A DNA stretch of 20,523 nt, from IMG/VR virus record IMGVR_UViG_3300030107_006195, positions 1 through 20,523 of that record; one strand, 5' to 3'. The notes under the pieces were generated by a model. The model was not told the origin of the DNA. It did no database searches and was given only the letters and a program-made list of their open reading frames with translations. The first letter of the stretch is position 1, and each line of letters begins with the position of its first letter. A program made the position numbers and the translations under genes. Source of the DNA: a virus. This document shows, in pieces, positions 1,267 to 17,561 of this stretch.

Positions 1267-2772
1267 GTGGCAATAGTACAACAAATGCTTCTATATCGTT
1301 CTGAATCTGATTGGATAACGACTTTTGGTAGAACTGGTGGTACTAGGCAATTTCCAGGAGGAATTGATATAGATAATGCGGGGAACATATATTGGGCTGG
1401 ATACGGAGTAACTTCAGATGATACCAGTTATCCATATACTGATGGTATGAAAACTAAATTAGTTAAGTTTAATGCCAACGGTGAGCACCAATGGTCAAGA
1501 GAAATTGGTACTGATTCTAAAAGTGATGGGTATGAGGCTGCAAGAGGTATTTCTGTAAGTTCTGATGGAGAAAGAATCGCTGTTGTATCACAGTCAACGA
1601 GTAATCCTAATGGTGGAGTAGGTGAACAACCTGTTGATAGTTATGCAGGAATACATATAGCAATGTATAATAAATCTGGAACTATACAGTGGCAGAGATA
1701 CTTTGATAAGATGGAGATTGATGGAGTTGGAGTACCGTATGGCGGTTCTTATGATGACCGACCTCAAGATATTTACGTAGATAGTGATTATAATGTTTAT
1801 GTTTGTGGAAGTCAGAGTAATCAATGTGGATCAGGTGTAGGAACATGTAATCAAAATGCTTTGTTTTTTAAAACAAATTCTTCTGGTACAATTCAATGGC
1901 AGAAAGTATTACATGCATCTGGTGAATCTGGACACATGACAACTACCAATAGAGGTAGGCAGGAAAACTTCTATGCTATGACAGTACATAATGGAGATTT
2001 TTATCTTGTTGGTCAAGCACAACAAATTCACCAAGATTTGACTAGTTATGAAGTACTTGTTGTAAAATATAATAGTTCTGGATCAGTACAATGGCAAAAA
2101 AGAGTTGATTATGGTGATTCGGATATTGGACATGGTATAGCAGTAGATTCTAATAATAACATTTATATTAGCGGAAGAATAGGTAGTTTGGATAATTATC
2201 CACTGATTAGTAAATTCAATTCTTCAATGTCACATCAATGGACGAGACAAATTGAGTATGATTATGCTTCTATATGGAGTATTGAAGTTGATAGTAGCGA
2301 TAATGTTTATGCTGCTGGATATACCGGTCCTATATTAAGTGGAAGTACTGGTTTGAATATCTTTTTCTTTAAATTTAATAGTTCTGGAACTACTCTATGG
2401 GGTAGAAAAATGGGACAAACAGATGGTGATGATATATATACTGCTTATGGACATGGGTTTAGAGTTAAAAATGGTAAGTTTATATTGTCTTCATCTGGTA
2501 GTTCTCGCACTGGATCTAATGGAGGTAATGCACTTAGTATTTGGAAACTTCCTGATACTGGATCAAAAACTGGAAGTTATACTACAAGTAATCTGAGTGC
2601 TTCCTCTGAAACTATAAGGTATGAAGATAATACAGACACTATTAGTACACCATCAGCACCTTCTGTTAATGATGCTGGATTAACCAATTCTAACTATAGT
2701 ATGGGTGAATGGGATGCAACATTACCAGAACAGGCAGTACCTAATTGGGTTTATTATAATACTACAATTTAA
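1267..2772 (+). CDS. Seven-bladed beta-propeller virion protein (SBBP-like repeats)
   Basis: The 501-aa product contains a repeated blade pattern: 'xxD..NNIYxxGx' followed about 20-30 residues later by 'FNSSGTIQWQ'. The second element recurs with a conserved Trp at W76, W142, W211, W276, W325 and W378. A further copy at W16 (SDWITTFG) sits at the N-terminus, while the last blade (about 395-430) lacks one. This is the permuted closure expected of a seven-bladed propeller. The repeats resemble the SBBP/PQQ-like propeller families. About 70 C-terminal residues form a separate tail. The GTG start immediately follows the previous stop; an in-frame ATG at 1285 would cost only six residues. No signal peptide is seen. 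By context it is a virion appendage that may bind a host surface ligand; a catalytic role cannot be excluded. Confidence 0.8.
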   Translation: MAIVQQMLLYRSESDWITTFGRTGGTRQFPGGIDIDNAGNIYWAGYGVTSDDTSYPYTDGMKTKLVKFNANGEHQWSREIGTDSKSDGYEAARGISVSSDGERIAVVSQSTSNPNGGVGEQPVDSYAGIHIAMYNKSGTIQWQRYFDKMEIDGVGVPYGGSYDDRPQDIYVDSDYNVYVCGSQSNQCGSGVGTCNQNALFFKTNSSGTIQWQKVLHASGESGHMTTTNRGRQENFYAMTVHNGDFYLVGQAQQIHQDLTSYEVLVVKYNSSGSVQWQKRVDYGDSDIGHGIAVDSNNNIYISGRIGSLDNYPLISKFNSSMSHQWTRQIEYDYASIWSIEVDSSDNVYAAGYTGPILSGSTGLNIFFFKFNSSGTTLWGRKMGQTDGDDIYTAYGHGFRVKNGKFILSSSGSSRTGSNGGNALSIWKLPDTGSKTGSYTTSNLSASSETIRYEDNTDTISTPSAPSVNDAGLTNSNYSMGEWDATLPEQAVPNWVYYNTTI

Positions 2773-3542: not shown

Positions 3543-6500
3543 ATGCCTCTGAATAAATTAGATAATTTTATAAAGAATACAGAGGGTCGTATTCTTTATG
3601 TGAGTCCAAGCGATTTAGACTCAACAGATACGATTGATAATCAAGGTAATTCACTTGCAAGACCATTTAAGACATTACAGAGAGCTTTAATTGAAGCTTC
3701 CAGATTTTCTTATGTTAAAGGGAATAGTAATGATATAATAGAAAAGACAACAATCCTGTTGATGCCTGGTGAACATAGTATTGATAATAGGCCAGGTTTA
3801 GCAATATATGCCGATGGAGATGTTGCAAGAGTGCGAGAAAAAAGTAGCACAGGTACTGGAACTCTTGCTCAAACTACATTGAATTTGGATTTAAATACAA
3901 ATTTTGATATAGAACAAGAAGATAATATTCTCTATAAATTTAATAGTGTTGATGGAGGTGTTGTAGTTCCTAGAGGAACCTCTGTTGTTGGATTAGATTT
4001 AAGAAAGACTAAAATAAGACCTAAGTATGTTCCTAATCCTACGGATGATAGTGTCCCTACATCTTCAATATTTAAAGTAACTGGTTCATGCTATTTCTGG
4101 CAATTCTCTATTTTTGATGGAAATGATTTAGAGACTGTTTATACTGATGATAAAGTTTTTAGTGAAGCAAAGAGAGCAGTTCCTACTTTCTCTCATAATA
4201 AATTAACAGTATTTGAATATTGTGATGGTGTTAATAATGTACCTGGTTATACCAGTAATGATCTTGACATGTACTATTATAAAGTAGGAAATGCATATAA
4301 CGCTGGATCTACAAGAGAAATAGAAAGTAATCAGAAATATCCTCTTAGTCTTTTAGCATTTGAACCAAGAAGGCCTGAGTGGGAAATCGTTGGTGCATTT
4401 GCTACTGATCCTATTAGACTTTTAAGTATTCAAGCAGGATCAGATGCTGGTCCAACTTCGGTGGTTACGGTTACAACAGTAACTCCACATAATCTTCAAG
4501 TGGGAACACCCATTAAGGTTAGAGGTGTCACTAATGCTCCTGGTTATAATATTTCAGCGATTGTTACTTGGGTAAGTGATACTGATGTCAATGTGTTCAC
4601 TTATACTTGCCCTGCAGTTACACAAGATCCTACTGCATTTCCAAGAGGAAATGTATCTTCTGCCACAGTTACCGTTGAAACAGATACAGTAGAGGGTTCT
4701 TCTCCTTATATCTTCAACTGTTCCATGAGATCAGTTTATGGTATGAATGGAATGAAAGCAGATGGTGATAAAGCCAGTGGTTTTAGATCCATGGTTGTTG
4801 CTCAATTTACTGGTGTATCTCTGCAAAAAGATGATAGAGCATTTGTAAAGTATAATAATGCTACGAGAAATTATGAATCTAATTCTTATAGTGCTGTAGA
4901 TGGTTCTGCACTTTCTGCAGGATCTTCTAAGAGTGTAGGGGGAGAGGCATATCATTTAGATTCGGGAGCAATATATCGACCAGGTTGGGAAACCAGTCAT
5001 ATTAAGATTACTAATGATGCTATTTTACAGATAGTTTCTGTATTTGCTATTGGATATACTAAACATTTTGATGCACAAACTGGTGGTGATGCTTCTATTA
5101 CTAACTCTAACTCAAACTTTGGTCAATTGGCTTTGGTTTCCGATGGATTTAAGAAAGAGTCATTTACAAAGGATAATAAAGCATTTATTACATCTATTAT
5201 TACTCCTAGAAGTATTGAGTCAACCGAAGAAAATCTTGATTGGGTAGGAATTAGTACTCTTTATGCAAGTGATAGTTCTAAATTATATCTACATGAATAT
5301 ACTCTTGAAGATATTAAACCCCCTATTCTTACTCAAGGATATAAGGTAGGTGCTGCCGTAAATGATAAAGTATATGTAGAAGTCGGTGTAAGTACCTATA
5401 GTGCATCTGTTATAATGCCTAATGGCAGCAGTTCACTTAAATCTTATAGTGTTACTACTCCACCTAGTGCAAGTAGTAATAGTTTTACCATAGGAACTAA
5501 TACTTTATCCACAGGAGAAAAAGTAATTGTTATTAGTGATGATGGTGATTTGCCAGAAAATATTGAAAATGATGTAGTATATTATATTATTAATAATGGA
5601 GATAATAATACTGTTAAGTTATCTTCCTCAGAATCAAATGCTACTAATGGTTTAGAAATTACTGTTTCTGGTGGAACTGGTCTTAATATTGTTAGTAGAG
5701 TTACTGATAAAATTCCAGGTGAAGCAGGTCATCCAGTGCAGTGGGATTCTACACAGAGTAATTGGTATGTAAATGTTGATAGCACACAAAATACAATTAC
5801 CTCACAATTACCTGCTATTCAAGGAAATACCACAGAGATTGGATATATTAAAAGAAAAGATGATGCAAGAAGTTTAGATGAAAAGATTTACCAATTAAGA
5901 GTTGTAATTCCAAAAGAGTCTTCTGATGCTAAAAATCCAGAGAATGGATTTATTATTCAGGAATCAAGTAGTACTGGAGTTTCCACTGATACTGAATTCA
6001 CTCAGACAACTGATTTAACTGAAAATGATTATGGATTTGAAAAGAATCCATCCTTTATTAGTACTTGTTTTTATGACTCAACGGTTGGAATTGCTTCTAT
6101 AAGAACAGATCATCCTCATACCTTAGATATTGGAGATACTGTAATTGTTAAGAATGTTCAAGATTCTGCTAATACTGTAGGTGCAGCTAATAGTGGTTAT
6201 AATGGAACCTTCACTGTGAGTAGTGTTCCTAATAACATGGAGTTTAAGTATAATACTAATTCTCAGACTCCTGGATCTTCAATGACTGGTATTACTACCA
6301 TTAGATCTACTGATTTACCACGATTTGAAAGAAATAACTTACAGAAAAATCTTTATATTTTTAGAAATGAAGTAATATCTTCATATATTGAAGGTCAGCA
6401 GGATGGTATCTATCACATTTATGTTCTTTCTGCTGATAATGCAATACCAACAACATTTACTAATTTAAAGTATAGTCAAAATGTAAGAGATCTATATCCT

Positions 6501-8990
6501 CAAATGGATAGAGATAATCCAGATGATAATCCACAGTCTTCTGCTTCTTTTGCTAAGAGATCTCCACTTGGTCAAGTTGTAACAAGTAACCTTAAAAAGA
6601 GTATAACCAGAGAAAGTACTGATCTTGTCACTAAAACTTTAGGAATAGGAGTTACTGTATCTTCAGTATCTGGTCTTTCGGGTGGTATATCTACTGTTAC
6701 TTTTACAGATAGACATAACTTTGGTGGTCTTACCAGTGGAAGTGTTGGAAATGCAGGAACTAATTATAATACTTCAGGAGTATATCAGAATGTAAAACTT
6801 TATAATGATAGTTCATTAGAAACTTGGTATGGTGCAACTGCTAGAGTAGAAGTAAGTGGAGGAGCTGTTACTTCTGCCACTCTTATTGCACAGGGTTCAG
6901 GATATTGGGGTGTAACTTCAGGAACACTTACATTATACTATGATAAAAATGCTATTGGTGGTGGTGATGGTAATGCAACTTTTGTAGCTACAGGAACGCA
7001 AGATTATGTTTCTACTATTGGTAATGTAGTTCAATTTAGTGGTGTTGGTATTGCTACAGATAGTTATTCAAGAGTAACTACAACTCCTAGTGACACTAAA
7101 ATTGCTATTGCTAGAACTGTTGGAGATCCTGATATTGTTGCAGGTCAATATGCACTTTCAGTCTCACCTTCTATTACAGTTTCATCTGATACATATGATT
7201 CAAATACAGGAATATCCACCTTTAATTGTTCTGCTGCTCATGGATTAGTAGCTGGTAATAGTTTTAGAATAGTTGATAGTAGTGATAATAATTTGGGTGA
7301 TTATATAGTTAAGTCAAAAGTGGATGTAGATTCATTCTCTGCAATTACTAATGCTAATTTAGCAGCTTCTAAAATCTATAAACTAGGATTTGCAGCTAAT
7401 GAAAAGGTATCTGATCTCACTAATGAGAATCTTACTGTAAGAGGAACTGCTTTATTTGATGAACAATACGCATATTTAACTTCTGTTGGGGGAAATACAA
7501 TAACTGTATCTCTCCCAGGATCAGAGACTGGACTTATTGATAGATTCCCATATGGATCTTATATTCAAATAGATGATGAAATAATGAGAATTGCTTCTCC
7601 AACAGTGGGTGGACCAGGTAACGATGAACTTACTGTTATTAGAGGTGCATTAGCAACTCCTACTTCTTCACATGATGCTAATTCTTTAATTAGAAAAATT
7701 AAACCAATCGCTATTGAGTTCCGTAGACCTTCTATTTTACGAGCATCAGGTCATACATTTGAATATCTTGGTTATGGGCCAGGTAATTATTCAACTGCAT
7801 TACCACAGGTTCAAGACAGAACACTTACTGAAAGGGAAGAGTTTTTATCTCAATCTCAAGAAAAAGGTGGTGGTATAGTTGTTTATACTGGTATGAATAG
7901 TAAAGGTGATTTTTATATTGGAAACCTGAAGAAATCATCGGCAACTGGTGAAGAAACTACTTATGACACACCAATTCCAACTGTAACAGGTCAAATACCT
8001 TCACGATTGAGTGGAGTATTTGATGAAGTGACAGTTAAGGAAAGAATAGTGGTTGAAGGTGGTGATTCAGGTGAAGTTCTCTCTCAATTTGATGGCCCAG
8101 TTACTTTTAACAAAGAAATCAGAATCAATGGTGGTCTTTCATTAACCAATCCTTTAATTATTAAAAATGAAAATGATGCTACGAGTACTACCACAGGTGC
8201 TGTACAGGTAACTGGTGGTGTAGGGATTCAGAAGAGTCTTCATGTAGGTGCTGGATTAACTGTTGGTACTGGAGCAACAATCGGAGGAGACCTACATGTA
8301 GGAGCTGCAATTACATGTTATGCTTCTACAGGTATTGTATCTGCTTATGCATTTTATGGTTCTGGTGCTAATTTATCTGATATTACAGTTCCTGGTGGTG
8401 CTGATGCATTACATTTGAATGATAATGTAAAATTGACATTTGGTGATGCTGCCAGTCCTGATATGGAGATCTATCATAATGGTACCGCTAGTTTTATAAG
8501 AGATATTGGTACAGGTGATCTTCATCTCCAAGGTGCTGCAGCAGTTGCAATCGAAGACACATCAGGTAATGATAGTGCTGTTTTCTTTACTAATGCTGGT
8601 GTTCAACTTCACTGGAGAGGTGCTACTGATCCTGGTGTTAAGTTTGAAACCACTCAAACAGGAGCAAAGGTAACAGGTGAATTGCAAGTAACTGATGATA
8701 TTACTGCTTTCTATTCTTCAGACAGAAGATTGAAAGATAATATAGTACCTATTCCAAATGCTTTAGATAAGGTTATATCTATTAGTGGTAACACTTTTGA
8801 TTGGAATTCTTCATCTAAAAAGGAAGGTAGTGAAGTCGGGGTAATTGCACAAGAGATTGAAGCACTCGGTCTTCCTGGTATTACTACTATCAGAGATGAT
8901 GGTAAATATGCTGTTAGATACGAGAAATTAGTTCCTCTTCTTATTGAAGCAATTAAAGAATTATCAGCTAAGGTTGATGCTTTATCATAA
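3543..8990 (+). CDS. Giant tail fibre / structural protein with C-terminal S74 autocleavage domain
   Basis: The 1815-aa product starts MPLNKLDNFIKNTEGRILYV, then has ARPFKTLQRALIEASRFSYV and TTILLMPGEH (to about residue 80), resembling the entry of pectate-lyase-like right-handed beta-helices. Along the middle, modules with a 'H-x-L-x-x-G' turn recur near residues 315, 857, 1057 and 1231. Near 1560-1700 come short repeats (HVGAGLTVGTGATIGGDLHV; YHNGTASFIRD). Residues 1726-1815 form a peptidase S74 / intramolecular chaperone domain: S-D-R-R-L-K (Ser1726, Lys1731), GVIAQEIEALG, YEKLVPLLIEAIKEL. In known S74 fibres the domain drives trimerisation and then cleaves itself off before this Ser. No Shine-Dalgarno sequence is seen; the CTAAATAA at about 3503-3510 may be a degenerate late box. 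Likely a major host-contact fibre. Confidence 0.88.
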   Translation: MPLNKLDNFIKNTEGRILYVSPSDLDSTDTIDNQGNSLARPFKTLQRALIEASRFSYVKGNSNDIIEKTTILLMPGEHSIDNRPGLAIYADGDVARVREKSSTGTGTLAQTTLNLDLNTNFDIEQEDNILYKFNSVDGGVVVPRGTSVVGLDLRKTKIRPKYVPNPTDDSVPTSSIFKVTGSCYFWQFSIFDGNDLETVYTDDKVFSEAKRAVPTFSHNKLTVFEYCDGVNNVPGYTSNDLDMYYYKVGNAYNAGSTREIESNQKYPLSLLAFEPRRPEWEIVGAFATDPIRLLSIQAGSDAGPTSVVTVTTVTPHNLQVGTPIKVRGVTNAPGYNISAIVTWVSDTDVNVFTYTCPAVTQDPTAFPRGNVSSATVTVETDTVEGSSPYIFNCSMRSVYGMNGMKADGDKASGFRSMVVAQFTGVSLQKDDRAFVKYNNATRNYESNSYSAVDGSALSAGSSKSVGGEAYHLDSGAIYRPGWETSHIKITNDAILQIVSVFAIGYTKHFDAQTGGDASITNSNSNFGQLALVSDGFKKESFTKDNKAFITSIITPRSIESTEENLDWVGISTLYASDSSKLYLHEYTLEDIKPPILTQGYKVGAAVNDKVYVEVGVSTYSASVIMPNGSSSLKSYSVTTPPSASSNSFTIGTNTLSTGEKVIVISDDGDLPENIENDVVYYIINNGDNNTVKLSSSESNATNGLEITVSGGTGLNIVSRVTDKIPGEAGHPVQWDSTQSNWYVNVDSTQNTITSQLPAIQGNTTEIGYIKRKDDARSLDEKIYQLRVVIPKESSDAKNPENGFIIQESSSTGVSTDTEFTQTTDLTENDYGFEKNPSFISTCFYDSTVGIASIRTDHPHTLDIGDTVIVKNVQDSANTVGAANSGYNGTFTVSSVPNNMEFKYNTNSQTPGSSMTGITTIRSTDLPRFERNNLQKNLYIFRNEVISSYIEGQQDGIYHIYVLSADNAIPTTFTNLKYSQNVRDLYPQMDRDNPDDNPQSSASFAKRSPLGQVVTSNLKKSITRESTDLVTKTLGIGVTVSSVSGLSGGISTVTFTDRHNFGGLTSGSVGNAGTNYNTSGVYQNVKLYNDSSLETWYGATARVEVSGGAVTSATLIAQGSGYWGVTSGTLTLYYDKNAIGGGDGNATFVATGTQDYVSTIGNVVQFSGVGIATDSYSRVTTTPSDTKIAIARTVGDPDIVAGQYALSVSPSITVSSDTYDSNTGISTFNCSAAHGLVAGNSFRIVDSSDNNLGDYIVKSKVDVDSFSAITNANLAASKIYKLGFAANEKVSDLTNENLTVRGTALFDEQYAYLTSVGGNTITVSLPGSETGLIDRFPYGSYIQIDDEIMRIASPTVGGPGNDELTVIRGALATPTSSHDANSLIRKIKPIAIEFRRPSILRASGHTFEYLGYGPGNYSTALPQVQDRTLTEREEFLSQSQEKGGGIVVYTGMNSKGDFYIGNLKKSSATGEETTYDTPIPTVTGQIPSRLSGVFDEVTVKERIVVEGGDSGEVLSQFDGPVTFNKEIRINGGLSLTNPLIIKNENDATSTTTGAVQVTGGVGIQKSLHVGAGLTVGTGATIGGDLHVGAAITCYASTGIVSAYAFYGSGANLSDITVPGGADALHLNDNVKLTFGDAASPDMEIYHNGTASFIRDIGTGDLHLQGAAAVAIEDTSGNDSAVFFTNAGVQLHWRGATDPGVKFETTQTGAKVTGELQVTDDITAFYSSDRRLKDNIVPIPNALDKVISISGNTFDWNSSSKKEGSEVGVIAQEIEALGLPGITTIRDDGKYAVRYEKLVPLLIEAIKELSAKVDALS
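8718..8987 (+). other. S74 intramolecular chaperone domain and predicted self-cleavage site
   Basis: This is the coding region of residues 1726-1815 of the giant fibre. The Ser1726/Lys1731 spacing of five matches the catalytic dyad of the endosialidase-type intramolecular chaperone. The downstream VxAQExE motif and the terminal helix LVPLLIEAIKEL are also present. Cleavage would occur just before the Ser codon at 8718-8720 and release a 90-aa chaperone. Confidence 0.8.
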
Positions 8991-9015: not shown

Positions 9016-11049
9016 ATGGCAAATTATAATAAGTCGTTTAACTTTAGAAATGGAGTTCAAGTTGATAATGATAACTTTATCGTTAATTCAGCTGGTTTAG
9101 TTGGTATTGGAACTACTATACCCACTGATTACTTAGATGTATATGGAACTTCTACATTTAGAGATGATATAACAATAACAGGTTTAGTTACATCAAGTAA
9201 TTTATATGTATCAGGTATTTCCACAATTTTAGGAAATGTTGGAATAGGAACTACAAATATAAATATTGCAGCTGATTCAAATAATAATACAATTCTTAAT
9301 GCAGGTATTGTAACTGCTAATTTTTATTATGGTAGTGGATTATATTTAACTGATGTTGTTGGATTTGCAACTCAGGGATGGAATGTTGTTACTCCTGAAG
9401 ATGGTGCTGTTAGAACAGGATTATCTACAACCTATAAAGTTGGTATTGGTACTACTCAAACTATACAGAAATTTGATTTATTAATAGGTAGAGATCCCGA
9501 TACTCCAAGTTATGAAGGTATAGGTTTTGCTGGTAATGCTGGTAATATTAGAGCTACTGGTATTGTAACAGCTGGAATAGGATTTACTGGATCATTATCA
9601 GGAAATGTTACGGGAAATGTAACAGGTGATGTAACATATAGTTCAGGAATATCATCCTTTACAACATTATTAGTTGGAAGTGGTATAACTCTCACTTCAA
9701 TCGCTTCTACCTTTGTTAATGCTGTAGATATAGATGGAAATTTAGATGTAGATGGTCATACAGAATTAGATGATGTAGTTGTATCTGGTGTCTCTACATT
9801 TAGTAGTGTCATAAATGCTAGTGATGATTTAGATGTAGATGGTCATACAGAATTAGATGATGTAAATGTAACTGGTGTTTCTACCTTTAATTCTAATGTA
9901 GGAATAGAAGATACAATATTCCATGTTGGAGATACAAATACCACATTAAGATTCCCTGCTGCTGATACAATTACAGCAGAAACAGCTGGATCGGAAAGAG
10001 TTCGTATTGCATCTGATGGTAAAGTTGGTATTGGTACTTCGGGGCCAACATCCGACCTACAAATTAAATCATCCACATCCGCCAATTTACAAGTAACCAG
10101 TGGTAGTAGTTACGGTGTAATTGCTGTAGGAAAGAGTTCGAATATTGATGGTTTTAATTCTCAACTGAGGTATGGATATGATAGTGGTTCGTTTAAGTAT
10201 AGTGATAATCGTTCTTTAGATCTCGTTAATTATGGATATGGTAATTTTAATCATATTCTTAATCCTAATTTAGGAATTGCAACTGGAAATTTCCATTGGT
10301 TACATGGGGAAAATGTTGATCCTTTGATGACTCTTACTTGGCAAGGTCAATTAGGAATTGGAATAACTGAACCACTTCAAGATGTTCATATTGTGGGTGT
10401 AACTACTTTCCAAGGAGAGGTTTATACATCTGGAAATGTTATTGTTGGAAATAACTTAACGGTTAAGGGAAATTTAGAAATAGATTCTGGTACCTTTAGT
10501 GGTAATATAATTGGAGATGTTAAATCACCTGATGGTAATATAGTAATAGATAATGGAACAACTGATGGTCAGAATGCTCGTGTATTTGCTAATACTTATA
10601 AGTTAAGTGGTATATCTACTTTTGGTCTTTTAGACGCTTCATCCGTAGGAATTGGAACTACAGCTGATAGTAATTATTATTTCCGTTGTGGATTACCAAC
10701 AGAACCAGAAAATAATCTTTTTGCTGACACCACAGGGCATCTTGGTATTAGAACCAGTGAAAGTTATGCTGGAGCAGGTGATAGTATTGGTTTAGCAGTT
10801 ATGGGTAATTCAAGTGCTATCGTAGAAGATAGGATAGGAATTGGAACCACAACTCCTAGATGTGCTTTAGATGTAGGAATAGGAGCGACGCAATCTACTG
10901 CGAGATTTATGATACTTCCAAAAGTTTCTGGTGTTGAAAGGGGTAATTTAGTTGGTCTTTCATCTGGAGCTTTAATATACAATACTACCACAGGTAAACT
11001 TAATTTTTATAATGGAGCTGGTGCATGGGAAACAGTAACGAGTAGTTAA
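9016..11049 (+). CDS. Tail fibre protein with VGIGTT-type repeats (677 aa)
   Basis: The protein begins MANYNKSFNFRNGVQVDNDN and is built from short beta-repeats of the type 'xVGIGTTxPxxxLDVxG', which recur at least seven times from about residue 30 to 640, as in many phage and marine surface fibres. A 29-residue tandem repeat lies near residues 242-283. GVSTF/SGISTF motifs separate the modules. The C-terminus (GNLVGLSSGALIYNTTTGKLNFYNGAGAWETV) is the 'W-E-T/P-V' end typical of fibre tips; it has no S74 domain, unlike its upstream neighbour. The start has no clear Shine-Dalgarno sequence but is fixed by the late box just upstream. It ends two bases before the glycine-rich gene, so the two are probably co-expressed fibre components. 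Confidence 0.82.
   Translation: MANYNKSFNFRNGVQVDNDNFIVNSAGLVGIGTTIPTDYLDVYGTSTFRDDITITGLVTSSNLYVSGISTILGNVGIGTTNINIAADSNNNTILNAGIVTANFYYGSGLYLTDVVGFATQGWNVVTPEDGAVRTGLSTTYKVGIGTTQTIQKFDLLIGRDPDTPSYEGIGFAGNAGNIRATGIVTAGIGFTGSLSGNVTGNVTGDVTYSSGISSFTTLLVGSGITLTSIASTFVNAVDIDGNLDVDGHTELDDVVVSGVSTFSSVINASDDLDVDGHTELDDVNVTGVSTFNSNVGIEDTIFHVGDTNTTLRFPAADTITAETAGSERVRIASDGKVGIGTSGPTSDLQIKSSTSANLQVTSGSSYGVIAVGKSSNIDGFNSQLRYGYDSGSFKYSDNRSLDLVNYGYGNFNHILNPNLGIATGNFHWLHGENVDPLMTLTWQGQLGIGITEPLQDVHIVGVTTFQGEVYTSGNVIVGNNLTVKGNLEIDSGTFSGNIIGDVKSPDGNIVIDNGTTDGQNARVFANTYKLSGISTFGLLDASSVGIGTTADSNYYFRCGLPTEPENNLFADTTGHLGIRTSESYAGAGDSIGLAVMGNSSAIVEDRIGIGTTTPRCALDVGIGATQSTARFMILPKVSGVERGNLVGLSSGALIYNTTTGKLNFYNGAGAWETVTSS
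9740..9864 (+). repeat. Tandem 87-bp repeat inside the 677-aa fibre gene
   Basis: A 38-base sequence at 9740-9777 recurs identically at 9827-9864, with a similar but diverged stretch after each copy. The period of 87 bases equals 29 codons, so the repeat keeps frame and duplicates one fibre module (DLDVDGHTELDDV then VSGVSTF). Identical bases, including third positions, point to recent duplication or gene conversion. Confidence 0.85.
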
Positions 11050-11051
11050 TT

Positions 11052-12137
11052 ATGGCTATTAATAAAACATCTGGAGAAACTCTTAGTTTTGAAGAGATAG
11101 AAAATGAATTTGGTCAAATTGCTGGTGCAAACAATAGAAAATTAGGATCTTATAGAGTTAATTATAGTAATGTAGCTGCTGGTGGTGGATTATCTAATGA
11201 ACCTTTGGATGAGGGAGTTCCACAATCTGGGCCAATTAAGTTTAGTGATTTTTATGGTAAAAAATTAAATATAGTAGTTGATTGTTATAGTTCACCTGCA
11301 CCTGCTAATGCTCATACTCGTGTTATAGCCAAAGATAATTATGATAATGGTGATGCAGAAGTAATAGGGCCAGGTTATTTTCCATCTCTTCCCAATTCCA
11401 ATAGTGGAGTGTCTGGTAAAAAAATTATTATTAATGTCAATACCAAATTTCAATCTGCAAGTACAGGCCCACTAGGGGATACTACACAATGTGCTTTACG
11501 AACTGGTCAGTGGCAGAGTGGAACCAGTGTTCAAGTTGATGTATCAGGAAGTGGTAAAATTATGGGAACAGGTGGTAATGGTGGGCAAGGAGGGCCAGAT
11601 GGTAATGCTGGTGAAGCTGGTAAAGATGGCTCAAGTGGTTTAGGTATTCAACAAGAAAATACTGTTGTAAATGTTCATTCTGGTGGTGCAATTATCACTG
11701 GATATGGCGGTGGCGGTGGCGGAGGATGGCATAAACAAAAAGATTGGGGGAGAACAAGGAATTCTGCTGGTGGAGGCGGCGGCGGTGGTGCTGGTGCTCC
11801 TAATTCAGTTGGTGGCTCACCTGGAGGTGGAGAAGGTGCCAGGGCAGGTGCGCCAGGAATAGAACCTATGGGTGGAGAACAAGGTGGTGCTGGTGGGCAA
11901 GGAGGAAATGATGATGGAGAAGCAATCGGTGGAGTTGGTGGCCGTGGAGGAGATCAATTAGATGCTGCTCAAGCTGGTCAGAGTAGGAGTGCATCAGGTG
12001 GAGCTGGTGGTAATAATGGTGCAGCAATTCGTAGATCAAGTGGTTCAATTTCTTGGACTTATGGTGCAACTCATGTGGGTAATGTGTGGGGTGCTGGATC
12101 GGGAGGATCTTCAGAATCTGGAACAGGAGTTAGTTAG
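11052..12137 (+). CDS. Glycine-rich, collagen-like adhesin candidate (361 aa)
   Basis: An N-terminal module (residues 1-72: SGETLSFEEIENEFG, then PLDEGVPQSGPIKFSDFYGK) looks like a conserved virion-attachment domain. After a middle beta-rich region, residues 172-196 have Gly at every third position (GNAGEAGKDGSSG), a collagen-like stretch. The rest carries runs of six or seven glycines (219-225, 240-246) and GG-x-GG repeats to about residue 323. The C-terminus has Trp and Gly (SISWTYG, NVWGAG). Glycine-rich sandwiches of this kind form the receptor-binding tip of T4-family gp38 adhesins, so a terminal adhesin role is plausible, though gp38 identity is not shown. It lies two bases after the 677-aa fibre gene. 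The TAG stop sits in a short TAGA repeat (12135-12148). Confidence 0.75.
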   Translation: MAINKTSGETLSFEEIENEFGQIAGANNRKLGSYRVNYSNVAAGGGLSNEPLDEGVPQSGPIKFSDFYGKKLNIVVDCYSSPAPANAHTRVIAKDNYDNGDAEVIGPGYFPSLPNSNSGVSGKKIIINVNTKFQSASTGPLGDTTQCALRTGQWQSGTSVQVDVSGSGKIMGTGGNGGQGGPDGNAGEAGKDGSSGLGIQQENTVVNVHSGGAIITGYGGGGGGGWHKQKDWGRTRNSAGGGGGGGAGAPNSVGGSPGGGEGARAGAPGIEPMGGEQGGAGGQGGNDDGEAIGGVGGRGGDQLDAAQAGQSRSASGGAGGNNGAAIRRSSGSISWTYGATHVGNVWGAGSGGSSESGTGVS

Positions 12138-12170
12138 ATAGATAGATAATACTACGAGATTGATTTTATT

Positions 12171-12752
12171 ATGATTACTGATTTTATTACCCGTTATGAA
12201 GGAGTATTTTCTCCTCAAGAATGTAAGGATATTATTCACCAGATTAATTATTTTGATGAACATCATTTTTTATATGGAGGTGAAGGTGACGCTCCTCATC
12301 TTTTAGATCACAAAGCAATTAATTTATCATGCAGTCATAGTATACCTGGAACTAATAAAATTGCTGAGTTAATAATTCCTAAGTTTAGACCTTGTGTTGA
12401 AGATTATTTAAAAACATATAGTGTATTAGGTCAATCTAAATTCTTAGTATATGATTGTAAATTAAAAAAGATTCCTCCAGCTGGAGGATTTCATGCTTGG
12501 CATTATGAAAATAGTAGTTTATTAGCATCTCAAAGACATTTTGCGATTCAATTATATGTTAATGATGATTTTGAAGGAGGAGAAACAGAGTTTTTATATC
12601 AAAATAGACGAGAACCACCTAAGGCTGGAGATGTAATAATATTCCCCTGTGGATTTACTCATGTTCATAGAGGTAATCCCCCTATAGGTGGTATTAAATA
12701 TCTTGCTACTTCATGGGGTTGGATACAAGCCGATAAATCGGATGTTTATTAA
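12171..12752 (+). CDS. 2OG-Fe(II) oxygenase, prolyl-4-hydroxylase-like (193 aa)
   Basis: The protein has the double-stranded beta-helix signature of the 2-oxoglutarate/Fe(II) dioxygenases. The first metal site is H111-Y-E113 (AWHYE), a HxE variant of the usual HxD. The second part reads GDVIIFPCGFTHVHRGNPP, with H166 as the distal His, followed by GGIKYLATSW with K176 at the 2OG carboxylate position. The GGETEF strand between them is typical of prolyl-4-hydroxylase-like members. Such enzymes hydroxylate protein or small-molecule substrates using O2 and 2OG in the cytoplasm. It directly follows the glycine-rich adhesin gene and precedes a second oxygenase. The substrate is unknown; modification of the adjacent virion protein is a guess. 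No obvious Shine-Dalgarno sequence precedes the ATG. Confidence 0.85.
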   Translation: MITDFITRYEGVFSPQECKDIIHQINYFDEHHFLYGGEGDAPHLLDHKAINLSCSHSIPGTNKIAELIIPKFRPCVEDYLKTYSVLGQSKFLVYDCKLKKIPPAGGFHAWHYENSSLLASQRHFAIQLYVNDDFEGGETEFLYQNRREPPKAGDVIIFPCGFTHVHRGNPPIGGIKYLATSWGWIQADKSDVY

Positions 12753-12753
12753 T

Positions 12754-13299
12754 ATGGATATTTTAGTTAAAGATAATATCTTTGATAATATTGATGAAAT
12801 AAGACAACAGGGATTAAATAGAAAAGATTATGACCATGACGATCATCCTTATAGGGGTGGTTGGAAAGGATATAGGTCACTTGAATTAAATGAGAAAGAT
12901 ATAATTTGTCAAAAAATTATTAATATAGTTGGTGATGTTTATGATATTAGATCTTACCCATTTCGTAGAGTTGCTTTTCATGTAACAGATATACCTTCTT
13001 GTAGAGAAAAACAACCTTTATTTCATAATATTAAATGGCATCAAGATGCTAAGTATCCTGATAGTTATGCTGGAGTAGTTTATTTACATCCTAATCCACC
13101 ACCAAATTCAGGATCTTCTATTTTAGATGGTGATAAGAATGAAATAATACATATTGATAATGTTTATAATCGTTTAGTATGTTGGCCTTCTTATTGCACT
13201 CATGCACCTACAAATGTATTTGGTGACGGTATAGAAACAGGAAGAATGACTCTTGTTTTCTTTATTCATCAACCAGAAGAACCATTTATGGAAATATGA
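12754..13299 (+). CDS. Second 2OG-Fe(II) oxygenase-like protein (181 aa)
   Basis: With the ATG at 12754 the product is MDILVKDNIFDNIDE... (181 aa). An ATG at 12742 in the same frame would add four residues and overlap the previous stop; a GTG at 12688 is unlikely because it adds a segment read out of frame from the preceding gene. The iron-binding motif is WHQD (H96, D98), the distal His is in YCTHAPT (H150), and GRMTLVFF supplies R164 for 2OG. Between them lie AGVVYLHP and LVCWPS, as in oxygenases that act on large substrates. The pairing with the preceding oxygenase, with which it shares little sequence, suggests two enzymes acting on related targets. It belongs to a different subfamily, similar in layout to DUF6445-type proteins; this assignment is tentative. 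Confidence 0.78.
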   Translation: MDILVKDNIFDNIDEIRQQGLNRKDYDHDDHPYRGGWKGYRSLELNEKDIICQKIINIVGDVYDIRSYPFRRVAFHVTDIPSCREKQPLFHNIKWHQDAKYPDSYAGVVYLHPNPPPNSGSSILDGDKNEIIHIDNVYNRLVCWPSYCTHAPTNVFGDGIETGRMTLVFFIHQPEEPFMEI

Positions 13300-13432: not shown

Positions 13433-14617
13433 ATGCCATTACGTCCACACCAAGTTGATGCTGTTACTGCGATGTGGAATAATGTCAAGGGGCAGGTCAT
13501 CGTTCCTACAGGTGGTGGTAAGACCATGTGTATGATTGAGGATGCCCAGAAAGTATTTCACACCAGAGAGATTGCAACCATTGTCGTGGTTGCTCCACGC
13601 ATCCTATTAGCAGAGCAACTATGTTCTGAGTTCTTGGAAACAGGAGAGTTTCCCGATGTAAGAGTCATGCACGTTCACAGTGGTGAGACTGAGCATTTCT
13701 CTTCAACTAAAGTTTCTGATATTAGATACCATAACTTCCTATGTTTTGAGTCTAATGCACATCAGTTGATCTTTACAACATATCATTCATTACACAGAAT
13801 ACAAGAGAGTAATATTATTGTAGATACAATATACTTTGATGAGGCACATAATTCAGTTCAGAAAAACTTCATTGGCCCTGTTGAGCATTTCTCATGGGAT
13901 TCTGATAGGTCTTACTTCTTTACTGCCACACCTAAGCATAGTCTCACACCATTCAAGGCAGGTATGAATGATTCTGATATATTTGGTAATGTAATATGTC
14001 AAGTACCAGCACCTAAGTTAGTAGAGCAAGGTTATATTCTACCACCAAAGGTAGAAGTATATGAGTCACGTTTACTTAATAAGCATGAGTTAGTTGCTGA
14101 TAAGGATTGTGAGCAAATGATTCAGTCTATTGATAACTTACAGAAGAGTAAGGTATTGATATGTGCTAAGTCAACAAAGCAGATTACTAATTTAGTATCA
14201 CAGACTGACTTCTGTTGCCAATTAAGAGAACGTGGTTATAATTGGATGTATATTACTGCAAAGACTGGTGCATTTATTAATGGTAAGAAAGTTAAGAGAG
14301 ACAAGTTCTTTGAGGTATTGAATCAGTGGGGTAAGGATGATTATACTAAGTTTGTAGTTCTACATCATAGTATATTATCTGAGGGTATCAATGTAAATGG
14401 TCTTGAGGCCGTCTTGTTCTTAAGATCTATGGATTATATCGGTATCAGTCAAACAATCGGTAGAGTGATCCGCAAGGGGGCAACTGATAAGGCATACGGT
14501 TTAGTTTGCGTTCCAGTTTACTCTAAGGTCGGTGTCTCTACTGCACGTAAAGTAGAGGCCGTTGTTGATACTATTTTCAACAAGGGTGAAGCAGCAACAT
14601 CGGTGGTAACAAAATGA
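13433..14617 (+). CDS. SF2 DNA/RNA helicase (394 aa)
   Basis: This is a complete superfamily 2 core: Walker A PTGGGKT (25-31), motif Ia VVAPRILLAEQ (52-62), DEAH box (136-139), TATP motif III (164-167), SEGIN motif V (316-320) and QTIGRVIR motif VI (340-347). The N-terminus RPHQVDAV is the usual Q-like entry, so the ATG at 13433 is chosen. The frame stays open back to 13253, but that stretch spans a terminator and promoter. It is shorter than T4 UvsW and lacks an obvious N-terminal DNA-binding domain, so the symbol uvsW is not given. Such enzymes remodel branched DNA or RNA during phage replication and recombination. It is the first gene of a tightly packed run, overlapping the next gene by ATGA. 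By eye it uses more C-ending codons than the oxygenases around it. Confidence 0.9.
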   Translation: MPLRPHQVDAVTAMWNNVKGQVIVPTGGGKTMCMIEDAQKVFHTREIATIVVVAPRILLAEQLCSEFLETGEFPDVRVMHVHSGETEHFSSTKVSDIRYHNFLCFESNAHQLIFTTYHSLHRIQESNIIVDTIYFDEAHNSVQKNFIGPVEHFSWDSDRSYFFTATPKHSLTPFKAGMNDSDIFGNVICQVPAPKLVEQGYILPPKVEVYESRLLNKHELVADKDCEQMIQSIDNLQKSKVLICAKSTKQITNLVSQTDFCCQLRERGYNWMYITAKTGAFINGKKVKRDKFFEVLNQWGKDDYTKFVVLHHSILSEGINVNGLEAVLFLRSMDYIGISQTIGRVIRKGATDKAYGLVCVPVYSKVGVSTARKVEAVVDTIFNKGEAATSVVTK

Positions 14618-15174
14618 ATCTTATATTCCCTTCCAGTTTTTATACACAATATAAAGCTCCTAATGCGGATGAATTAATTGAGGTTATTAATTCATATCAG
14701 GATAAGTTAGTTAATAATTCTAAATTTAACTGGGGAGAGGTGTGTTCTTCTGATAAAATACCATTAAAATTTGAAGACTTTCTACCTTTATTGGAACCTA
14801 GTATAAATCTTTTTGCTGAAGATATTGGAGTAACCTTTAATTATACTCTTTTTAATCCATGGATAAATTTATATAAAAAAGGAGATTTTCAAGAAATTCA
14901 TGACCACATTGCTCAAGATTTTGCATGTGTGTTTTTTGCGAATGATGGAGAGAATTTTGCTAAGTTTTATTTTTCAGATAGAAATTCTACTGCATTAACA
15001 AGAGGGGCAAAGACTCTATTAAAATATCAGAATAATCATTTTCCCAAGTTTAATGTAGGTGATATTATATTTTTTCCTAGTCACATATTACATGGTGTAA
15101 CTCCTCATCGAAGTGATATAATAAGAAAAACATTAGCTTTTAATTTTGATATTGAACACTATTATAAACCTTAA
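14614..15174 (+). CDS. Third 2OG-Fe(II) oxygenase-like protein (186 aa)
   Basis: The start overlaps the helicase stop as ATGA. The layout matches the small phage 2OG-FeII_Oxy_5 type: NPWINLYKKGDFQEIHDH (H96 and H98), a beta strand ACVFFAND, then GDIIFFPSHILHGVTPH with distal H160, and IRKTLAFNFD with R171 for 2OG. The first metal motif reads H-x-H where most relatives have H-x-H-P or HxD, so one ligand is uncertain. These enzymes are frequent in marine T4-like phages, with mostly unknown substrates. Base use is strikingly A/T-rich compared with the helicase it is fused to in the transcript, which suggests separate acquisition. Probably an oxidative modification enzyme of the early/middle gene set. 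Confidence 0.78.
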   Translation: MNLIFPSSFYTQYKAPNADELIEVINSYQDKLVNNSKFNWGEVCSSDKIPLKFEDFLPLLEPSINLFAEDIGVTFNYTLFNPWINLYKKGDFQEIHDHIAQDFACVFFANDGENFAKFYFSDRNSTALTRGAKTLLKYQNNHFPKFNVGDIIFFPSHILHGVTPHRSDIIRKTLAFNFDIEHYYKP

Positions 15175-15655: not shown

Positions 15656-16494
15656 AAGACACTATCCTTTATGGTGACTGTCGAAAGACTTTATGTGCAT
15701 TTTTGCCACAGAGTGCTAGGGTATGTGTTACATCTCCACCATACTACGGTCTAAGAAACTATGGTGGAGAAGAGTCACAAATAGGATTAGAACAAACTCC
15801 AGAAGAGTTTATTGATGAGTTAGTTAAAGTATTCAGGGAGGTGCGAAATGTGCTCACAGATGATGGAACTTGTTGGGTTAATATTGGGGATAGTTACTAT
15901 AATTACAGGCCAGGTAGAGGACAAGGATTGGCAAAACAAACAGTCTCAAATACTAAACAAGACTTACCAGATGTGTGTCCTCGCAGAGGAAATAAACTTG
16001 AAGGATTTAAAGAAAAAGACCTCATCGGAATCCCATGGATGTTCGCATTTGCCATGCGAGCAGATGGATGGTATTTAAGACAGGATATTATATGGAATAA
16101 ACCTAATCCAATGCCTGAGAGTGTGAGAGATAGATGCACAAAATCACACGAATATATCTTTTTGTTTAGTAAGAGTCAGAATTATTATTTTGATGTGGAT
16201 GCCATTAAGGAAGAGACAAGACGTAAGAGAAGTGTATGGAATGTGACTAAGAAACCATACAAGGGAGCTCACTTTGCTGTATTCCCACCTGATTTGATTG
16301 AACCATGTATATTGGCTGGTAGTGAGAAGGGTGACACCATATTAGATCCATTCATGGGTTCAGGAACCACTGCCATGGTATCCAAGAAGTTAAATAGACA
16401 TTACATAGGTTGCGAATTACATGAGAACTATGGTAATCTAATAGAGGAGAGAGTGTCATCTTATGAGAATAAATTAGAGAAGTTTTTTAAATGA
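15652..16494 (+). CDS. Beta-class DNA N4-cytosine/N6-adenine methyltransferase (280 aa)
   Basis: Motif IV is TSPPYYGLRNYG (27-38) near the N-terminus, and the AdoMet-binding motif I DPFMGSGTT (232-240) is near the C-terminus. This order defines the beta class of amino-methyltransferases. SPPY is frequent in N4-cytosine enzymes but also occurs in N6-adenine ones. Further family features are HEYIFLFSKSQNYYFD (166-181), SVWNV (194-198) and AHFAVFPPDL (206-215), and the domain appears complete. The enzyme would transfer a methyl group to one DNA base within a short recognition site. No restriction endonuclease gene is adjacent, so it behaves as an orphan methylase, probably protecting phage DNA or marking it. 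Both ends overlap neighbours by ATGA. Confidence 0.9.
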   Translation: MKDTILYGDCRKTLCAFLPQSARVCVTSPPYYGLRNYGGEESQIGLEQTPEEFIDELVKVFREVRNVLTDDGTCWVNIGDSYYNYRPGRGQGLAKQTVSNTKQDLPDVCPRRGNKLEGFKEKDLIGIPWMFAFAMRADGWYLRQDIIWNKPNPMPESVRDRCTKSHEYIFLFSKSQNYYFDVDAIKEETRRKRSVWNVTKKPYKGAHFAVFPPDLIEPCILAGSEKGDTILDPFMGSGTTAMVSKKLNRHYIGCELHENYGNLIEERVSSYENKLEKFFK

Positions 16495-17561
16495 AGATAG
16501 CAATAGTAGGAGCTGGCAATGCTGGATGTGTAACTGCTTTACATTATCACAAGTATCTTGAGATTGATAATGAGATTGTTATATACCATAACCCTGATGA
16601 ACATCCAATAGAAAGAGTTGGTCAGGGAACACTTTTTTCTATTACAGATTTAATATCTTCTACATTAGGTATTAATTGGTATGATAATCCTATTGATGCC
16701 ACATTTAAAACAGGTATATTATATGAGGGATGGGGTAAGAAAAAGGATATATTATTTCATCCTTTTCCTCTACCTGATATGTCAATACATTTTGTTCCAC
16801 AGAAGTTATCAAAGGCAGTATTAGAATCAGGATATTTTAAAGTCATTGAAAAGACTATAACTGATCCTGAAAAAGAAATAGATGCTGATGTCATATTTGA
16901 CTGTAGAGGTAGGCACAATAGAGATAAGAGTAACTATGATACATTGATTGATCCTTTAAACTCTGTGTTATTATATAAGAAACAAGGCAGAGATCCCGAT
17001 CTAATCTATACCCGATCTGTTGCAACACCTAATGGATGGACATTTGTTATTCCCAACAAGGATAGTATATCTTATGGTTATCTCTATAATAATACTATAA
17101 CCTCAAAGGAAGATGCCAGAAAGGATTTCTTAGATAGATTTGATTTACCTGAAGTAGATGGTGAACTAACCTTTGAGAATTATATGGCAAAGAATATGTT
17201 TGCAGGTGAGAGAACCATTCTACAAGGTAATATGTATGGATTCTTAGAACCATTGGAGGCAACGTCATTAGGATTCTATAGAATTATTTGTAAGCAGGCT
17301 TGGGATGCTATATTTCATATTAAATCATTAGATGAATGTAATACTGAGGTTAGAAGGGTAATGAAAGAATTGGAGAATGTAACACTGTGGCATTATCAAT
17401 ATGGTTCTAAGTATGATACTCCATTCTGGGAGTATGCTAAATCACTTCCATTTAAACCTGATAAAAGGTTTGATATGATGATAGATAATCCTGAGTCTAC
17501 TGAAATGTATGGTCAATGGGAAGGGTGGAATTTTAAAAATTGGAAGGAGGGCATGGAATGA
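16491..17561 (+). CDS. Flavin-dependent tryptophan-halogenase-like enzyme (356 aa)
   Basis: The N-terminus has the FAD Rossmann motif GAGNAG (7-12), after a strand MKIAIV. ATFKTGILYEGW (70-81) matches the segment that carries the catalytic Lys of FADH2-dependent halogenases (here K73). NGWTFVIP (181-188) followed by SYGYLYN stands for the W-x-W-x-I-P block, but with only one Trp. GFLEPLEATSLG (250-261) matches the chloride-binding 'EPLESTG' loop of PrnA-type enzymes. At 356 aa it is shorter than bacterial halogenases (about 510-540), so it is a compact version. It could halogenate an indole or another aromatic substrate, or act as a monooxygenase. It would need a flavin reductase from the host. 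It lies between a methyltransferase and a protease-like gene with ATGA overlaps. Confidence 0.85.
   Translation: MKIAIVGAGNAGCVTALHYHKYLEIDNEIVIYHNPDEHPIERVGQGTLFSITDLISSTLGINWYDNPIDATFKTGILYEGWGKKKDILFHPFPLPDMSIHFVPQKLSKAVLESGYFKVIEKTITDPEKEIDADVIFDCRGRHNRDKSNYDTLIDPLNSVLLYKKQGRDPDLIYTRSVATPNGWTFVIPNKDSISYGYLYNNTITSKEDARKDFLDRFDLPEVDGELTFENYMAKNMFAGERTILQGNMYGFLEPLEATSLGFYRIICKQAWDAIFHIKSLDECNTEVRRVMKELENVTLWHYQYGSKYDTPFWEYAKSLPFKPDKRFDMMIDNPESTEMYGQWEGWNFKNWKEGME

Follow-up and report, generated by a model that had tools for sequence, protein, structure and literature searches.

Within a 20,523-base stretch of viral DNA (the window; the IMG/VR fragment from which it comes has 22,547 bases), the gene for a glycine-rich protein is followed directly by the gene for an oxygenase, and the locus raises the question of whether the second protein acts on the first and, if so, on which of its residues. 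The earlier note had read the pair as a collagen-like adhesin and a prolyl-hydroxylase-like enzyme, forming a system that would harden the fibre or tune receptor binding. The genes are arranged on the + strand in the order S74 fibre, fibB, adhesin, oxy1 (the oxygenase), oxyB, a helicase-like gene, oxyC, a DNA methyltransferase-like gene and a Trp-halogenase-like gene (Table 1), and the gap of 33 bases reported between the adhesin stop and the oxygenase reading frame was verified. We treat the group as T4-like cyanophages because the gp23 capsid proteins in the two long relatives' contigs that were tested share 85% and 74% identity with that of Prochlorococcus phage P-SSM2, an assignment made from these relatives.

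Table 1 Features of the window and examples of post-adhesin oxygenases at related loci (L numbers)
Feature	Position	Strand	Remarks
SBBP beta-propeller repeat protein	1267-2772		501 aa; tail region
Large tail fibre	3543..8990	+	S74 chaperone end; upstream of adhesin
fibB	9016..11049	+	Second tail fibre gene; stops 2 bases short of the adhesin start
gp38-like tail-tip adhesin (predicted)	11052..12137	+	361 aa; N-terminal anchor, beta-rich part, polyglycine-II sandwich domain
Polyglycine-II sandwich domain (predicted)	11565..12041	+	Residues about 172-330, boundaries approximate; block pLDDT mostly 87-96
Asp163 codon	11538..11540	+	Adhesin residue tied most tightly to oxygenase presence
Asp231 codon	11742..11744	+	In loop aligning with receptor-recognition loop B of PP01/T2 gp38
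Pro250 codon	11799..11801	+	Invariant with or without oxygenase, also in T2 and S16 gp38
oxy1	12171..12752	+	193 aa; 2OG-Fe(II) oxygenase of predicted prolyl-4-hydroxylase fold; proposed adhesin hydroxylase
oxy1 proposed iron ligands, His111-x-Glu113 (HxE)	12501..12509	+	Invariant in 36 relatives
oxy1 distal iron ligand His166 and 2OG-binding Lys176	12666..12698	+	Spacing +10; invariant in 36 relatives
oxyB	12754..13299	+	Second probable 2OG oxygenase; Pfam match below cut-off, HxD and distal His visible
oxyC	14614..15174	+	Third 2OG oxygenase of island; 2OG-FeII_Oxy_5
Tryptophan halogenase-like gene	16491..17561	+	Frequent island member
Post-adhesin oxygenase examples	window 12754-13299, 14614-15174; L003:1409-2586; L005:7362-7823; L059:6557-7273

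The glycine-rich protein is, as judged from its relatives and predicted fold, a gp38 tail-tip adhesin of the T2/S16 type, which bears out its earlier description as an adhesin candidate. An AlphaFold2 model built with an alignment of 52 relatives had a pLDDT of 82 (mostly 87-96 in the glycine-rich part) and a pTM of 0.81, and its only significant PDB matches were gp38 of phage S16 (6f45_D; VIA Z 17.7, rmsd 5.7, 245 residues aligned) and gp38 of phage PP01 (9v85_A; VIA Z 16.3, rmsd 3.2, 210 residues aligned, Foldseek E 3.5e-6). Pfam GP38 (PF05268) matched 11 of the 52 relatives (best value 1.6e-12) but not the window protein, and a PHROG tail-fibre family matched 38 of the 52. In gp38 of PP01 and S16, receptor-recognition loops protrude from a polyglycine-II sandwich (PMC12892980), an architecture that the window adhesin is predicted to share with gp38 of S16, PP01 and T2 (PF05268), although its identity to T2 and S16 gp38 is 26%. 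The invariant proline in the GGGGxP turn of T2/S16 gp38 is also present. In the window and most relatives the adhesin gene is placed straight after the distal tail-fibre genes (S74 fibre and fibB), just as gp38 of T-even phages immediately follows the genes for the long tail fibre (order 37-38 in T2 and S16). Unlike T2/S16 gp38, the window adhesin has an additional N-terminal anchor domain of ~130 residues, and the gene that follows encodes a 2OG oxygenase here and a holin in T2 and S16. The adhesin of AG-345-D19 (L086:8001-10097) is a longer form of 698 aa with a long additional C-terminal part.

The features on which the collagen comparison had been built were confirmed in the sequence: glycine at every third residue over positions 172-196 (nine Gly-X-Y triplets), the stretch GAPGIEP within the product of 11052-12137, and few prolines at the collagen Y position. 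The comparison itself failed, and a collagen-like fibre hardened by hydroxyproline is barely credible, as the predicted fold of the glycine-rich part is a gp38-type polyglycine-II sandwich and not a triple helix. The longest Gly-X-Y run is nine triplets in the window protein and 0-9 in relatives, where such runs are short or absent, and the glycine-rich domain holds five prolines in the window protein and as few as one in relatives. A collagen triple helix is ruled out by the predicted fold, the low proline content and the short triplet runs.

Proline is the main substrate of the P4H-fold enzymes whose structures have been solved, and the description of the next gene as a prolyl-4-hydroxylase-like oxygenase agrees with both its profile and its structure matches. 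The oxy1 protein matched Pfam 2OG-FeII_Oxy_3 (PF13640; E 6.9e-9; 37 bits, cut-off 27) and did not match PF05118, the profile of AspH-type Asp/Asn hydroxylases; it also falls in PHROG 61 (E 4.9e-42), so that the PHROG 61 2OG-Fe(II) oxygenases of cyanophages belong to the same family. Among solved structures, a profile of oxy1 relatives matched prolyl 4-hydroxylases best (6iuq, E 2.9e-9; 3itq, E 1.6e-8), and the oxy1 model (pLDDT 79) gave P. putida P4H as its top VIA match (4j25_E; Z 19.0, rmsd 2.6, 169 residues aligned), followed by PHD2 and, lower, by the PBCV-1 collagen hydroxylase. The active site is intact (HxE...H-x9-K), with H111, E113, H166 and K176 invariant across 36 relatives. The fold, the position of the facial triad and the Lys at +10 are common to oxy1, P. 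putida P4H, B. anthracis P4H, PBCV-1 vCPH and PHD2, whereas the iron site of oxy1 is HxE where prolyl 4-hydroxylases and PHD2 carry HxD. On its sequence and model, oxy1 is thus assigned as a 2OG-Fe(II) oxygenase of the P4H-type double-stranded beta-helix fold; the prolyl-hydroxylase-like structure of these phage oxygenases had already been noted in the Phold work (PMC12774648).

Conservation of the gene pair among relatives, proposed earlier as a check, was strong. Adhesin-anchored scans yielded 91 distinct testable loci after dereplication and, being anchored on the adhesin, involved no selection for the enzyme; the immediate downstream gene was a 2OG oxygenase at 78 of these loci (oxy1 at 46, oxyD at 15, oxyF at 10 and oxyE at 7). 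A 2OG oxygenase was present within five genes of the adhesin at 90/91 loci, and oxy1 itself at 65/91. Proximity is retained in two gene orders, one co-directional and one convergent, in which oxyE-oxyD-oxy1 face the adhesin. N-terminal adhesin alignments were the productive queries for these scans, the whole adhesin or Gly motifs returning zero or one locus, and among named phage records a tblastn search with the adhesin gave hits in AG-345-D19 and AG-345-L05 only. Conversely, an oxy1-anchored scan of 77 close loci had the adhesin on the same fragment in 65, most of the others being cut at an end. Circular-shift analysis of eight contigs of 102-236 kb placed 24 of 42 2OG genes <6 kb from the adhesin (3.65 expected, P < 5e-5), and in 15 cultured cyanophage genome records, which were not selected by position, 41 of 141 2OG genes lay <10 kb from the homologous fibre gene (18.9 expected, P 5e-5); both P values are optimistic because of shared ancestry, gene order being partly inherited.

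The main new result is a residue-level coupling between two aspartates of the adhesin and the oxy1 gene. In a discovery set of 86 adhesins whose fragments extend over three or more genes downstream (61 with oxy1 and 25 without), Asp163 was present in 60/61 adhesins with oxy1 and 0/25 without (p 8e-21), the latter having Glu, Asn, Gln, Val, Tyr or Arg at this position, and Asp231 was present in 50/61 and 0/25, respectively (p 2e-13). When ten kinds of neighbouring gene were scanned against all alignment columns and 20 residues, Asp163-oxy1 and Asp231-oxy1 ranked first and second. No other island gene among the ten neighbours had a comparable adhesin residue; the other island oxygenases gave weaker, apparently clade-specific signals with particular adhesin residues. 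A link between the Trp halogenase and an adhesin Trp was dropped, as the scan of all columns gave no signal for it.

The association was seen again in a held-out set of 46 adhesins from further loci (<90% identity to the earlier ones, all reading frames searched for oxy1), in which Asp163 was found in 32/33 adhesins with oxy1 and 3/13 without; this set is not fully independent because it comes partly from one clade. Across the combined 132 adhesins, Asp163 occurred in 92/94 with the oxy1 family at the locus and 3/38 without, and Asp231 in 62/94 and 0/38. The two adhesins with oxy1 and Glu163 (L198 and L313) look like one group, and the three with Asp163 and no oxy1 on the fragment (L307, L350 and L312) all come from fragments. 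AG-345-D19 has Asn at position 163, and its oxy1 relative is unlinked to the adhesin, lying at L087 downstream of gp46/47-like genes. In one clean case, five loci that have the S74-adhesin arrangement and lack oxy1 carry Glu163 (L114, L115, L121, L123 and L128), alongside L145 and L159, in which oxy1 and Asp163 occur together. Of the contigs lacking Asp163, one of 231 kb had no oxy1 match and one of 234 kb reached 35 bits only, compared with ~300 bits where oxy1 is present.

The link between oxy1 and Asp163/Asp231 holds after phylogenetic correction. Pagel-type independent and dependent two-trait models were compared by likelihood ratio (LR, 4 df) on trees from which the tested columns had been removed, and LR values of 42-64 were obtained over several trees, with 42-50 in the discovery set. 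On the combined tree of 132 sequences, the test covered the 56 columns whose raw association was strongest; Asp231 and Asp163 had LR values of 45.6 and 41.7, respectively, followed by columns 229 (24.5), 161 (18.1) and 171 (17.6), with a median of ~6 for the rest. A tree of the N-terminal half alone gave LR 58-64 with 14 changes of oxy1 status, and a tree of the C-terminal, glycine-rich half alone gave LR 50-52 with 10 changes. The coupled residues are few and mostly confined to segments 161-171 and 229-235, rather than spread over the protein. In the adhesin model, Asp163 is located in the last long beta strand preceding the first polyglycine-II helix; Asp231 aligns to a loop at T2 residues 160-168, the receptor loop B of PP01 being Q161-V170 (T2 and PP01 numbering assumed alike).

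Given the fold of oxy1, a proline would be the expected target, and the candidate is Pro250 in the GGGGGGGAGxP turn, the sole invariant proline of the glycine-rich domain and in some relatives its only one; its hydroxylation by an enzyme with a P4H fold and the Lys at +10 could stabilise the domain. We consider this improbable, and Pro250 as an enzyme-linked residue was ruled out. The Pro250 motif was found in 59/61 adhesins with oxy1 and 24/25 without, and this proline is invariant in T2 and S16 gp38 also, so the fold suffices to explain why it is conserved; in the same residue scan, none of the proline columns tracked the enzyme. Aspartate is favoured over proline because Pro250 is independent of the enzyme. 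In this respect, too, oxy1 differs from the prolyl 4-hydroxylases, as correlated evolution in the partner protein points to Asp and not to Pro. If so, the reaction would be of the same kind as that of AspH and FIH on protein Asp, carried out by an enzyme of a different family (2OG-FeII_Oxy_3, not PF05118); we know of no Asp-hydroxylating member of the P4H fold with the active site of oxy1.

These observations suggest a mechanism for which we would put the chances at about even, namely that oxy1 is dedicated to the adhesin and hydroxylates Asp163 and/or Asp231, tuning the receptor-binding tip. The gp38-type adhesin would cap the tail fibre of a T4-like cyanophage; oxy1 would bind newly made adhesin inside the infected cell, ahead of virion assembly, and convert Asp163 and/or Asp231 to beta-hydroxyaspartate, consuming O2 and 2-oxoglutarate with Fe(II); and the oxidised residues would adjust the receptor-binding tip and thus host binding. 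That the adhesin is the substrate, an Asp the modified residue and host binding the property affected is what we infer from the correlated evolution of enzyme and aspartates. The best account of Asp163 and Asp231 appears to be that they are the modified residues or a site required by oxy1, since correlation cannot separate modification from docking. Of the earlier proposals, receptor tuning, for which Asp had been listed among the candidate residues, fits this correlated evolution; the collagen and fibre-hardening part does not stand.

Docking without catalysis would make oxy1 an oxygenase-fold chaperone or assembly factor that recognises the Asp163/Asp231 patch, and the coupling could reflect such a binding interface; genes beside tail-fibre tips often encode assembly chaperones. 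This explanation is very unlikely, a pure chaperone being disfavoured because all of the catalytic residues, which it would not need, stay invariant in the 36 relatives. The main rival to adhesin hydroxylation, though still rather unlikely, is a co-inherited host-range cassette, in which the oxygenase targets something else in the phage or host and Asp163 and Asp231 are signatures of adhesin subtypes that fit the same hosts. This host-recognition island is variable and unites several oxygenase families and a Trp halogenase, and Fe(II) oxygenases and gp38 are listed together among such genes in the passages of the 2014 metaviromic island study that concern them, with no mechanism proposed there (PMC3909814). 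Co-inheritance sits poorly with a coupling that is limited to few residues, mostly in 161-171 and 229-235, that recurs on both half-adhesin trees with 10-14 changes of oxy1 status, and that has no counterpart for any other gene of the island.

Cultured cyanophages provide counter-evidence to a dedicated role. They carry many 2OG oxygenases even though, of 16 cyanophage records searched with the adhesin profile, 14 gave no match and only P-HM1 and MED4-213 a weak gp38-like one. Their oxy1 relatives are distant (~36% identity) and occur mostly in phages without the adhesin, and the PHROG 61 relatives examined there lie beside gp23/gp3, talC or other genes. The outcome that the earlier note had named as refuting the pairing, an oxygenase without the adhesin in most relatives, was therefore found among these distant relatives but not among close ones, where 65 of 77 fragments hold both genes. 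An enzyme for auxiliary metabolism or host takeover, with an EF-Tu-like host protein or a small molecule as its target and inserted by chance at a hotspot behind the tail-fibre genes, would fit the abundance of 2OG oxygenases (5-19 per genome in 15 cyanophage genomes), the roles in 2-oxoglutarate/nitrogen metabolism or DNA repair suggested by Sullivan and others for the many such enzymes of cyanophages (PMC3037559), and the activity of the nearest structural match, P. putida P4H, which hydroxylates EF-Tu. It leaves unexplained both the Asp163/Asp231 coupling and the repeated use of several 2OG oxygenase families in the post-adhesin slot, and we regard it as unlikely, more so than the cassette. 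In GU071098 (15-45 kb) and GU071099 (12-44 kb) (L250 and L251), 2OG oxygenases cluster near the large fibre gene without an adhesin, and one 2OG oxygenase of P-RSM4 is annotated as leprecan-like.

The region behind the adhesin contains 2OG oxygenases of several groups (2OG-FeII_Oxy_3, Oxy_5 and AspH-like PF05118), often 2-4 within a few genes; the PF05118 match belongs to another island gene in relatives (L005:7362-7823). A Trp-halogenase-like gene is common in the island (in the window and, for example, at L060, L066 and L090), with no adhesin Trp that tracks it. Two small unannotated families (~116 and ~157 aa; L005:6548-6895 and L005:6895-7362) recur together without a PHROG match, and proteins resembling them occur in AG-345-D19 (L086:11086-11915). 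A subtilase (Peptidase_S8) gene in the adhesin/fibre region (L088:9755-11788; also L202, L223 and L226) is possibly a fibre-processing protease. Some 2OG oxygenases of this analysis matched PHROG 274, 2297 and 1644, whose labels, DNA endonuclease (V) and minor coat protein, look like mis-annotations.

A broader proposal, which we advance tentatively and with less confidence than the hydroxylation of the adhesin by oxy1, is that T4-like marine cyanophages possess a modular system of tail-tip decoration, in which a gp38-type adhesin is combined with at least one protein oxygenase dedicated to oxidising particular side chains on the receptor-binding protein. In such a system, whose oxygenases form at least five sequence groups, often accompanied by a Trp halogenase, oxy1 would be the P4H-fold aspartyl hydroxylase for Asp163/Asp231, and adhesin chemistry that is not genetically coded could change host range. 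Our search of the literature outside subscription journals found no paper tying such an oxygenase to a phage adhesin, and the coupling to Asp163 and Asp231 identifies a partner protein and residues for oxy1. The comparative sequence evidence suggests that this marine phage alters the chemistry of the protein with which it recognises its host. Few accessory genes recur as often in marine T4-like phages as those for 2OG-Fe(II) oxygenases. Modification of the phage's own adhesin by at least the oxy1 subfamily would place some 'auxiliary metabolic genes' among the genes for host recognition, and infectivity would then depend in part on O2, iron and 2-oxoglutarate.
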